Shown in pieces: positions 2,738 to 7,137 of a stretch of 40,945 nt of DNA. Origin of the DNA: Acidobacteriota bacterium. Lineage in GTDB: Bacteria; Acidobacteriota; Terriglobia; Bryobacterales; Bryobacteraceae. The stretch spans positions 1 to 40,945 of the forward strand of contig QHXW01000094.1 of the NCBI GenBank assembly GCA_003223115.1, in the 5' to 3' direction. The first letter of the stretch is position 1, and each line of letters opens with the position of its first letter. The position numbers and the translations under genes were made by a program. A model generated the notes under the pieces. It saw only the letters and a program-made list of their open reading frames with translations, was not told where the DNA came from and ran no database searches.

Positions 2738-2809
2738 ACGGGCCCAACCCAACTATCGCGCCTCCGCCCTCCGGGACACCGGCCTGATAAGATATTTGGA
2801 TCGGGACCC

Positions 2810-3841
2810 ATGATCACCCGCGACCAAGCTCTCGACCTGCTGCGCTCTGACGATCTCATCGGGATCGGCATGGCGGCCGACCAGGTGCGCAGAAAATTCC
2901 ACCCCGAGGGCATCGTGTCGTACATCATCGATCGCAACATCAACTACACCAATTTCTGTACCGAATACTGCAGCTTCTGCGCGTTTTATCGGCCCATGGG
3001 CCATCAGGAAGGCTACATCCTGCCGAAGGAAGTGATTTTCGACAAAATTCAGGAAACCATTGACCTCGGCGGCACCGGTATCCTGATGCAGGGCGGGCTT
3101 CATCCGGATTTAAAGATCGAGTGGTACGAGGATCTGTTGCGCTCCATCAAGAAACGGTTCTCCATCCATTGCCATTGATTTTCGGCGCCAGAAATCACGA
3201 ATATCGCCGATGTCAGCGGACTTTCCCTTCGCGACACCATCGCCAGGCTGCGCGACGCGGGGCTCGATTCCATCCCGGGCGGCGGCGCCGAAATTCTGGA
3301 CGACGGTGTGCGCCATCGCATCAGCCGGCTAAAGTGCTCCACCCGCGAGTGGATTGAGGTGCACCGAACGGCTCACGCGCTGGGCATGCGAACCACGGCC
3401 ACGATGATGTTCGGCTGCGGCGAAACGTTCGAGCAGCGGATCAATCACCTGGAGATCGTACGCCAGATCCAGCAAGACACCGGAGGCTTCACCGCGTTCA
3501 TCCCGTGGACCTTTCAGCGGGAAAATACGTCGCTCGGCCGCTTCATCAAAGAGGAAGCCACGGCCGTCGAGTACCTCCAGATGCTGGCGCTTTCGCGCAT
3601 TTACCTCGATAACATCGAAAACATTCAGTCCTCATGGGTGACGCCCGGGCTCAAGACGTGCCAACTGGGTCTGCGCTTCGGTGGAAATGACGTTGGCAGC
3701 ATCATGATCGAGGAAAACGTGGTCTCCGCGGCCGGCACTCATAACCGCGCCTCTGAAGAAGAACTTCGCAGGATGATCCGTGACGCGGGCTTCATTCCGA
3801 AGCAGCGCGATACTCTTTACCGCACTTATTTTCTGAACTGA
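2810..3841 (+). pseudogene. mqnC: MqnC-like dehypoxanthine futalosine cyclase interrupted by one in-frame TGA
   Basis: MqnC is the radical SAM enzyme that cyclises dehypoxanthine futalosine in the futalosine route to menaquinone. The frame begins MITRDQALDLL and carries the [4Fe-4S] motif C-TEY-C-SF-C near residues 46-53. At codon 123 (TGA, 3176-3178) translation would stop, giving 122 residues. Homology continues in exactly the same frame for 220 codons: FSAPEITNIADVSG, LRDTIARLRDAGLDSIPGGG, TTATMMFGCGET, GGFTAFIPWTFQ and QSSWVTPGLK, ending RDTLYRTYFLN. There is no indel. The total of 343 codons is close to a normal MqnC. No other futalosine gene lies nearby. The TGA is a nonsense mutation, a base error, or less likely a recoded codon; a 6-bp hairpin follows it (3182-3187 with 3205-3210) but lacks SECIS features. 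A second intact copy elsewhere cannot be excluded. Confidence 0.85.
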
Positions 3842-3890
3842 TACCGCTGTCCGGTTGGTTGCAGGACCGGGCCGTAACTCGTGTCGCTAA

Positions 3891-4715
3891 CTATTTCACA
3901 ACTGTAGGTGGGGCGTAGCGAGGGTCCGGCACATATTTGGCGCCGGGTTTCCAGGTGAAATCCCAAATCTGCATGTTCAGCTTGCCAGGCGTGTACTCAA
4001 CCACGGCGTATTCGCCCGGCTCGAGCGGCTTCTGCGGCCAAATCTTGTACAGGCCATTCTGATCGAGCTGCCGGCGGAAAATCTCAACTTCCTCCGGCTC
4101 TTCCACAACTTCTTTTGAAACCGGGATAATCGTCAGCTTCTCGGCGATGCGCACGTTCTCATGGGGAATGAGGCGAACGATTCCGAACCGCTCCTCGCGC
4201 TCGATCTGAATGTAGAATTCCGGCGCGTCGTTTTCAACGTTGTAGTTCGAGTGTAAATTATCTAGCTCGAGCGTGGCCTTGCCTGAAACCAACGGAATAG
4301 GTGATATGGCCTTCAGCACCGATCGGCGCTTGTTGTTATGAACTTTGGATTCGGCCAGGTGTAAGATGCGCAGCTCTTTTCTGTCAATGAGTTGATAGAC
4401 GCCGGGATTTTGCGGAATTTTCGAGATCTCCTGCACCTGTTCGCGCTCGACCTTTTCCTCGGCCGAGATCACTTTGGCATCCTCTTCGAGCCTCTGCTTA
4501 CGGTCCGCCGCCTCGTCTTCAGTACGCTTCAGATCCACGAGGTCCGCCGGGATTTCCTCCCATTGGCTTCGCTCGACGCTGTAAAAACGCACACGATCCT
4601 TCTGGACGCCGTACTCGCGCACAATGTGATAACTGCCGTCCTTCAGGTACATCCGCAGGTTGGCGGCGAAAGCGGAGACAGCAAGAAGAACCAGCGCGGC
4701 CAGAGCTCTACGCAT
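3891..4715 (-). CDS. Secreted protein of unknown function, conserved-looking
   Basis: A 274-residue protein with a short signal peptide (MRRALAALVLLAVSAFA). After it comes NLRMYLKDGSYHIVREYGVQ, a strand-turn-strand motif seen in many acidobacterial secreted proteins of unknown role. A charged, probably helical or coiled-coil segment follows at about residues 60-100 (rich in E, K, R, Q), then beta-rich sequence such as PGVYQLIDRKELRILHLAES and a C-terminal half with EPGEYAVVEYTPGKLNMQIW. No catalytic motif is recognisable. It lies tail to tail with mqnC (50 bp apart). I judge it a real gene from its signal peptide, composition and length, but give it no function. Confidence 0.7.
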   Translation of the reverse strand: MRRALAALVLLAVSAFAANLRMYLKDGSYHIVREYGVQKDRVRFYSVERSQWEEIPADLVDLKRTEDEAADRKQRLEEDAKVISAEEKVEREQVQEISKIPQNPGVYQLIDRKELRILHLAESKVHNNKRRSVLKAISPIPLVSGKATLELDNLHSNYNVENDAPEFYIQIEREERFGIVRLIPHENVRIAEKLTIIPVSKEVVEEPEEVEIFRRQLDQNGLYKIWPQKPLEPGEYAVVEYTPGKLNMQIWDFTWKPGAKYVPDPRYAPPTVVK

Positions 4716-4906
4716 ACTACTAAAGACCAGTTTATCGCGAGGAATGGTTTCAGCAATGGGAACCAGCTTTTATGCTAAGAGCGTTAAATCTGGTTAGCCA
4801 ATTTTGTGAAAGTGTTCTGTGTAGGAAAGATAAAGGACGTCAATAGAGAACCGCAAAATCACCATCTTGAGGATTCAGCCTAATTTTTCTAGTTTCCTCG
4901 ATCGTC

Positions 4907-5394: not shown

Positions 5395-6096
5395 TTATTC
5401 GGCCGTGGTGGAGCGCGCTGATTCCGCGATGGCCAGCGCCTCAGTAAAGGGGATGCCCTGATGCACCAGGGCGTTGATACCGGCCAGCACAGGCTCCGGC
5501 TGCGGCTCAACCAACACGCCTTGAGCGCCGGTTTCCATGCAATCGTGCACGAAGCGCACCAGATTGCGGGGCGTCAGAGAACGCGGCGTCGCGGCCAGCA
5601 CCGGACGGCCGGCATTGCGTACGGTCTGCCGGAAATCGGGAAAGTCCGTGACGGTGGGCGCCAGGATCGCATCGGCGCCGTACTCGACCGCGATGGACAC
5701 AGCGCCGGCCAGGTCTTCTCCAGCGATCTCGGCGATCACAGGCATGCCCAGGCGGCGTGCATCTTCCGTCACGCGCCCCAGCCTTTCTAGATCGTGCGCC
5801 AGATGACCATCCACCCTCAGCAGAACGGCCTCTGCTCCAACCTCGAGTGCGCCCTGCACACTCGCCAGTTGCGACGCCCGGCTGGTTCCGTTCAGCCGCA
5901 GAATCACCGCCAGCCCCGCCAGGTCTTCAATCACCCATTCCAGAATTCCTGGCGACAGCGCCACCGCGTCAGCACCCGACCGCGCAATGGTGCGGATCAG
6001 CGCTACCGGGCTCTCCGCACCTGGATCAAGCGGTACGATCAGCGCCCGGCCATTCGCAAAAATGCGGCGTAATCTCAACGATTTGCCGAGATTCAT
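5395..6096 (-). CDS. DhnA/FbaB-type class I aldolase-like TIM barrel lacking the Schiff-base lysine
   Basis: A 233-residue protein whose start, GKSLRLRRIFANGRALIVPLDPG, matches the beginning of archaeal-type class I fructose-bisphosphate aldolase/DhnA proteins (usually RLxRIF...IVPMDHG). The regular pattern of strands (SGADAVALSPG, GLAVILRLNG, GAEAVLLRV, GMPVIAEI, GADAILAPT, RPVLAATP) fits a TIM barrel. The characteristic DHG is DPG here. The only lysine in the whole protein is residue 5, so the strand that normally offers the Schiff-base lysine (here ADAILAPTVTD) cannot do so. It is therefore either a non-aldolase member of the fold or an inactive paralogue. It is divergent from the aldo/keto reductase with only 20 bp between the start codons, which suggests shared regulation but not a common pathway. 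Confidence 0.65.
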   Translation of the reverse strand: MNLGKSLRLRRIFANGRALIVPLDPGAESPVALIRTIARSGADAVALSPGILEWVIEDLAGLAVILRLNGTSRASQLASVQGALEVGAEAVLLRVDGHLAHDLERLGRVTEDARRLGMPVIAEIAGEDLAGAVSIAVEYGADAILAPTVTDFPDFRQTVRNAGRPVLAATPRSLTPRNLVRFVHDCMETGAQGVLVEPQPEPVLAGINALVHQGIPFTEALAIAESARSTTAE

Positions 6097-6101
6097 GTCT
6101 T

Positions 6102-6107
6102 TATAAT
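6102..6107 (+). promoter_or_regulatory. Perfect TATAAT in a 20-bp divergent gap
   Basis: TATAAT lies 9 bp upstream of the aldo/keto reductase ATG, between two divergent starts. No good -35 box is seen at 16-18 bp (the hexamer there is cgattt). If it works, the mRNA would be nearly leaderless. It could be coincidence. Confidence 0.25.
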
Positions 6108-6116
6108 AGTTGTGTC

Positions 6117-7091
6117 ATGCACTACCGCAAACTGGGCAGAACCAATTATCACGTAAGCGAGATGGGTTATGGTGCCTGGGGTGTCGGTGGCACACAGTGG
6201 CTCGGCGGTGACGACAGGCAATCGCTCGATGCCTTGCATGCGGCCCTTGAACGCGGCGTGAACTTCATCGACACTGCCCTGGCATACGGAAATGGCCATA
6301 GCGAGCAACTGGTCGGACAGGTGGTGCGCGCGGCCGGCTACAAGATTTACGTCGCCACCAAGGTCCCTCCGAAGAACCAGAAGTGGCCCGCCCGGCCCGG
6401 CGTCGATATCTCGGAAGTGTTCCCCCACGACTACATCATCAGCTCGACAGAGCACAGCCTGAAGAATCTGGGCTTGGATACCGTTGACCTGCAGCAGCTC
6501 CATGTCTGGAATCCAGAGTGGATCGACCGTGACGACTGGATGCGGGCTTTCGAGGAACTCAAGACATCCGGCAAAGTGAGGGCGGTGGGAGTTTCGATTA
6601 ACGATCACCAGCCTGATAGCGCGCTCACAATCATCGAGACCGGCCTCATCGAAACCGTCCAGGTAATTTACAACATCTTCGACCAGTCGCCCGAGCAGCA
6701 TCTGTTACCGCTTTGCACCGCCCGTGGCATCGGGGTCATTTCGCGCGCGCCTCTCGATGAAGGCGGGCTCACTGGAAAGATCAACAAAGATACGCATTTT
6801 GAGCCCTCGGATTTCCGCGCCAGTTACTTCGAAGCAGATCGCAAGAAGGAAGTGGCCGAACACGTTGCCGCCATCGAACGCGATCTGGGCATTCAGAACG
6901 GCGCCATGCCTGAGCTTGCGTTGCGATTCTGCCTGTCGCATCCGGCGGTCACAACCGTCATTCCGGGCATGCGCAACCGCGCCAACGTGGAATTCAACTG
7001 CGCAATACCGGGAAAAGGCCCTCTACCTGAAAAGGTGCTGGCTGTATTGAAGCGGCACGCCTGGAACCGGAATTTTTACGGACTGGATTGA
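6117..7091 (+). CDS. Aldo/keto reductase
   Basis: A 324-residue NAD(P)H-dependent oxidoreductase that would reduce aldehydes or ketones. The start MHYRKLGRTNYHVSEMGYG is typical of the family; the open frame extends further upstream, but that part overlaps the divergent gene. The catalytic tetrad is visible: Asp and Tyr in FIDTALAYGNGHSE, Lys in IYVATKV, and His in DTVDLQQLHVW. The C-terminal cofactor-binding region reads LALRFCLSHPAVTTVIPG, followed by a Met-Arg-Asn segment in the place of the usual phosphate-binding residues. It belongs to the group with the AYGNGHSE motif (YghZ/oxidoreductase type) rather than to xylose reductases. It ends facing the CRTAC1-type gene (46 bp). The substrate is unknown. 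Confidence 0.92.
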   Translation: MHYRKLGRTNYHVSEMGYGAWGVGGTQWLGGDDRQSLDALHAALERGVNFIDTALAYGNGHSEQLVGQVVRAAGYKIYVATKVPPKNQKWPARPGVDISEVFPHDYIISSTEHSLKNLGLDTVDLQQLHVWNPEWIDRDDWMRAFEELKTSGKVRAVGVSINDHQPDSALTIIETGLIETVQVIYNIFDQSPEQHLLPLCTARGIGVISRAPLDEGGLTGKINKDTHFEPSDFRASYFEADRKKEVAEHVAAIERDLGIQNGAMPELALRFCLSHPAVTTVIPGMRNRANVEFNCAIPGKGPLPEKVLAVLKRHAWNRNFYGLD

Positions 7092-7137
7092 TCCCGCGCT
7101 GCAGGCTTTCTTCGCCGCGCGCCATGGCAGCGATGAA

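Follow-up and report, generated by a model that had tools for sequence, protein, structure and literature searches.

Locus mqnC of the draft genome analysed here, that of an acidobacterial soil bacterium, raises the question why a gene of menaquinone (vitamin K) synthesis that its owner should need carries a stop codon in its first half, and whether this stop is read by the cell or ends translation. The window, i.e. the whole stretch of 40,945 nucleotides under study, is contig C489 of a 9.14-Mb draft of 594 contigs, which according to the tool's figures is 97.49% complete with 4.8% contamination. The gene for dehypoxanthine futalosine cyclase (MqnC), a radical SAM enzyme, occupies positions 2810–3841 of the forward strand. 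Its frame comprises 343 codons followed by a terminal TGA, and the sole internal stop is a further TGA at codon 123 (3176–3178, forward strand), located between KRFSIHCH and FSAPEIT without any change of frame. The earlier note had described a lone in-frame TGA in an otherwise intact mqnC and this description holds.

With the TGA read through, the product reaches 488 bits against the MqnC model of NCBIfam (TIGR03699, cut-off 428.1) and is matched from residue 2 to 338 in a single stretch, so it represents one gene. It resembles MqnC in passing this curated cut-off and in possessing the CxxxCxxC motif with cysteines 50, 54 and 57 (codons at 2957–2980, forward strand, located from the translation and the list of cysteine positions), but differs from the family in that the TGA of codon 123 interrupts the full-length frame. 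CxxxCxxC is the iron–sulphur ligand motif of radical SAM enzymes, and since it lies upstream of the TGA, codon 123 is not among the motif ligands. Two genes of the same genus are 92% and 93% identical to mqnC, and the regions 2808–4739 and 5414–7093 are collinear with the same-genus genome G094. The nearest named relatives are mostly metagenome-assembled Acidobacteria (Terriglobia, Bryobacterales) with a few under other labels, and in a search of the PDB the nearest relative with a solved structure was MqnE (6xi9).

The window copy is the single MqnC found in the 9.14-Mb assembly. Another copy, which the earlier note had offered as a way out, is unsupported: the assembly's other match, on contig C277, was rejected as a second mqnC because it is MqnE (TIGR03700, 496.8 bits, cut-off 434.55). 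This MqnE is without stops and so are the two PF02621 genes (MqnA/MqnD family) on contigs C150 and C66. The classical menaquinone route was probed through a single marker, menD, whose best score in the genome was 44.3 bits against a cut-off of 244.2. Because the MqnA/MqnD-family genes are free of stops and menD stays below its cut-off, this organism probably makes menaquinone by the futalosine route alone, and since there is no second copy either, MqnC should be needed.

Codon 123 was compared in 109 fetched MqnC loci representing 105 distinct sequences, all of them without the TGA. Cysteine occupies this column in 102 of the 105, and alanine, glycine and serine occur once each; both same-genus genomes (L004, L005) have cysteine. 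The alignment with relatives proposed earlier thus reveals a conserved cysteine, although a catalytic thiol at this position is doubtful because three relatives do without it. Not one of the 105 distinct sequences has an internal stop, and therefore a stop is unusual for mqnC and the background rate of stops low. In a search of 237 genomes from the family and 396 from the phylum, many of them drafts, the TGA-type pattern matched no genome besides that of the window. Of the 105 distinct relatives, 94 are found by the cysteine form of the same pattern, which also recovers 28 of 29 loci tested from the family; as this form misses some relatives, the search is sensitive and incomplete, and divergent genes were possibly missed.

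The machinery for selenocysteine, whose search the earlier note had recommended, is at hand. A tRNA-Sec (69.9 bits; anticodon TCA according to ARAGORN) and SelB (370.9 bits, cut-off 242.25; one row above cut-off in this genome) were both found, and selB matches above cut-off occur in 87 of 101 family genomes. SelD is present too, with an in-frame TGA at its selenocysteine site; counting this genome, such a TGA is found in 27 of the 34 SelD rows above cut-off. Around the TGA it (L138) resembles the SelD of the same-genus genome G035 (L131) and is therefore not an obvious contaminant. The alpha subunit of formate dehydrogenase (1328.7 bits) likewise contains one in-frame TGA. With these genes the genome decodes UGA as selenocysteine. 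A second, formate-dehydrogenase-like gene (G000:C109; 85.6 bits, below cut-off) also has one in-frame TGA; this TGA (L206, position 1743) lies within a formate-dehydrogenase-like motif and is accompanied by a strong SECIS-like hairpin of -19.4 kcal/mol, which makes the gene a candidate for a second selenocysteine-type molybdenum enzyme of this genome.

How old the lesion may be can be estimated from the trio formed with the two same-genus genes. In the 220 codons after the TGA the window gene differs from them by 100 silent and 12 replacing and by 92 silent and 13 replacing codon differences, and the two differ from each other by 90 and 8. The corresponding silent and replacing values for the 122 codons before the TGA are 46/14 and 38/10, with 42/8 between the two same-genus genes. 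Private amino-acid changes before and after the TGA number 7 and 8 in the window gene, 5 and 3 as well as 1 and 4 in the others, so that its excess is slight and found on both sides. Among the columns that do not vary across 39 distinct close relatives (the ones aligning over the full length without gaps), mqnC departs at one only, cysteine 123, which has become the stop. Signs of a decaying pseudogene, namely several lesions or relaxed selection, were not found in mqnC: there is a single lesion, and the differences downstream of it are mostly silent, and therefore the lesion is young. Judged by these codon patterns, mqnC appears to be still under selection or to have lost it only very recently. 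Drafts from this family do contain conserved genes with a single stop: the selB match of genome G005, which is above cut-off, carries a TAG.

The TGA is most probably an isolated and very recent nonsense change, whether it arose by true mutation in the strain sampled or by an error in the draft's consensus; between these two origins the balance is about even. We favour this reading because a SECIS element is missing (see below), the TGA has turned up in no other genome searched and the lesion is young. A single base change can create a stop in mqnC by 99 routes, of which eight begin at cysteine codons; a stop on a cysteine codon by chance (about 8% by route count) is therefore not remote, and this was counted for a nonsense change. 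Counted against it were that a near-invariant cysteine has been hit, that the stop is TGA and that the genome decodes UGA as selenocysteine, a coincidence of about 8%, which shifts the odds towards recoding roughly tenfold. Further points against it are that mqnC is without signs of decay, as recoding also predicts, and that MqnC should be needed and stops in mqnC are rare (none in the 105 distinct relatives).

Very improbable, as we see it, is the insertion of a canonical residue at UGA 123 by leaky readthrough or by a nonsense-suppressor tRNA resembling the allo-tRNAs. Allo-tRNAs with unusual acceptor arms have been reported from Acidobacteria, and allo-tRNA and selC-like tRNA-Cys opal suppressors were described by Mukai et al. 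2017, both as related in the review PMC7609411. This phylum-level likeness, together with a gene that looks selected downstream of its stop, speaks for suppression, but here no tRNA with anticodon UCA besides tRNA-Sec was found. It is the sole UCA anticodon among the tRNAs called by ARAGORN (66 tRNA-model matches fetched), and in the 23 matches of a UCA/T-arm pattern ARAGORN finds tRNA-Sec and other known tRNAs and no further UCA. ARAGORN left 18 weak matches of the tRNA model uncalled, mostly fragments of tRNA 3' halves; inspection by eye detected a UCA anticodon in none of the 15 readable ones (L186, L187 and L189 are unreadable). As 150 of 258 candidates were scored in the first-look search, a tRNA of very unusual form may have escaped. 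A TGA followed by A is a leakier stop; in mqnC the following base is T, which argues against plain readthrough.

Some by-products of the tRNA search may be mentioned. The 3'-half fragments (L174–L191; contigs C231, C83, C121, C460, C341 and others) are many, retain the anticodon arm, the T arm and CCA and lack a corresponding 5' half. An identical anticodon loop recurs in several of them, and they resemble copies of attachment sites left behind by integrated elements. A dispersed repeat at C148:19413-19463, C148:31496-31546 and C165:4055-4105 begins with TTCAGTAACTTA and ends with the T-arm-like GGGTTCGA(C/T)(C/T)CC. A hit on contig C370 with TTCAA near a T-arm-like stretch was rejected, as neither ARAGORN nor Rfam recognises a tRNA there.

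Very improbable is that MqnC is a selenoprotein in which SelB and tRNA-Sec place selenocysteine at UGA 123 for an ancestral cysteine. The arguments in its favour are the following: cysteine in 102 of 105 distinct relatives, a genome with tRNA-Sec and SelB at the scores given above, a SelD and a formate dehydrogenase with in-frame TGA codons of their own, and a conserved frame downstream of the TGA. In these respects mqnC is like known Cys/Sec (UGA) pairs such as the SelD and the formate dehydrogenase alpha subunit of this very genome. It differs from them in being without a SECIS element by the rule used, in the lack of any other UGA-type genome among the 237 and 396 searched, and in a column that is not known as redox-active and tolerates alanine, glycine or serine. 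UGA in more than one lineage is the usual support for a selenoprotein, though not a strict requirement, and here it is seen in the window's genome only.

The test for a SECIS element speaks against selenocysteine. According to PMC13188914 a bacterial SECIS has a loop of 3–9 nt with G in its first two places on a stem of 4–16 bp, lies 16–37 nt after the UGA and reaches an energy of -7.5 kcal/mol or lower. There were 11 selenocysteine-type controls, namely nine SelD genes (one from the window's genome) and two further genes of this genome; the SelD controls are not independent and are the nine TGA-type genes among 11 SelD loci fetched (of 34 above cut-off), the other two being Cys-type. All 11 controls pass the published rule (-8.5 to -19.4 kcal/mol), whereas mqnC fails it with a best hairpin of -3.3 kcal/mol; the two Cys-type SelD genes score 0.0 and -3.1. 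Since 43 of the 109 non-TGA MqnC loci pass as well, by chance, the rule is sensitive and not specific and passing it proves little (76 of the 109 score as low as mqnC or lower); failing it is informative because every control passes, and a rule loose enough to accept 43 loci without a TGA still rejects the window gene. A strict scan, in which uninterrupted stems of at least 4 bp with a loop start at +14 to +25 were considered, yielded zero qualifying stems for mqnC, and the controls have a G-bearing loop whose start lies at +18 to +21 from the UGA. The folding energy of the segment from +11 to +36 is -1.4 in mqnC, a value reached or undercut by 78 of 109 non-TGA MqnC loci, and -6.7 to -10.6 in the controls. 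One control, FdhA, passes the published rule via a hairpin at 26 nt, its +18 hairpin having -6.3 in the strict scan. The three selenocysteine-type sites of the window's genome share a common layout with a G-bearing loop that starts at +18 to +20, and this, like the single SelB row above cut-off, was counted against selenocysteine in mqnC. The objection from the missing SECIS is weakened by the statement in PMC13188914 that some bacterial elements deviate from the model.

Among the SelD genes the element has a recognisable form, common to the nine TGA-type family genes examined, with a 6–7 bp stem around GUCCAA/UUGGAC and a loop with GG or GU; the two Cys-type SelD genes examined have lost it.

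A hairpin of 6 bp with a 17-base loop, to which the earlier note had drawn attention, does exist past the TGA at 3182–3210 of the forward strand (TCGGCG at 3182–3187 pairing with CGCCGA at 3205–3210). As a SECIS it was rejected for its 17-base loop and its closeness to the TGA, and because its six pairs form at the same place in 32 of the 109 non-TGA MqnC loci; it is a by-product of conserved codons. The earlier opinion that selenocysteine is unlikely hence stands on better grounds, since mqnC is without the cis element that the genome's own selenoprotein genes have. Its proposed test, by which a conserved cysteine plus selenocysteine genes would support recoding, came out positive, as cysteine and genes are both there; against recoding stands the missing SECIS.

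A recent swap of cysteine for selenocysteine in the MqnC of this bryobacteral lineage without a recognisable SECIS accordingly deserves very little credence. If true, it would imply that SelB is relaxed or that the recoding signal is of an unknown type, and selenium would enter menaquinone synthesis. To our knowledge this would be the first selenium-dependent step of that pathway, and the insertion of selenocysteine would proceed without a conventional SECIS. In the literature "MqnC" and "selenocysteine" occur together in one paper, on a Campylobacter genome, and the word "menaquinone" is absent from the main text, as available, of a 2026 review of prokaryotic selenoproteins.

That the TGA splits mqnC into two working polypeptides, for which a downstream GTG-started frame of 177 amino acids (3308–3841) could be invoked, can hardly be maintained, since this GTG is codon 167 and 43 codons after the stop are therefore lost from both pieces, the CxxxCxxC motif is confined to the first piece, and all 105 distinct relatives are free of stops in mqnC.

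In our judgement the missing SECIS, the lack of a second TGA lineage and the tolerance of the column for alanine, glycine or serine outweigh the 8% coincidence. The case is instructive because mqnC passes the usual first screen for selenoproteins, a UGA opposite a conserved cysteine in a selenocysteine-using genome, and fails once the SECIS elements of the same genome serve as yardstick. Cys/UGA pairs seen in a single genome should therefore not be called recoded. For the organism we infer both the recency of the TGA and a loss of MqnC function: a nonsense change at codon 123 would very recently have hit the only mqnC found. If the TGA is real, translation would end after residue 122 of the 343, leaving the strain unable to complete menaquinone via the futalosine route, barring supply from neighbouring cells or slight readthrough.
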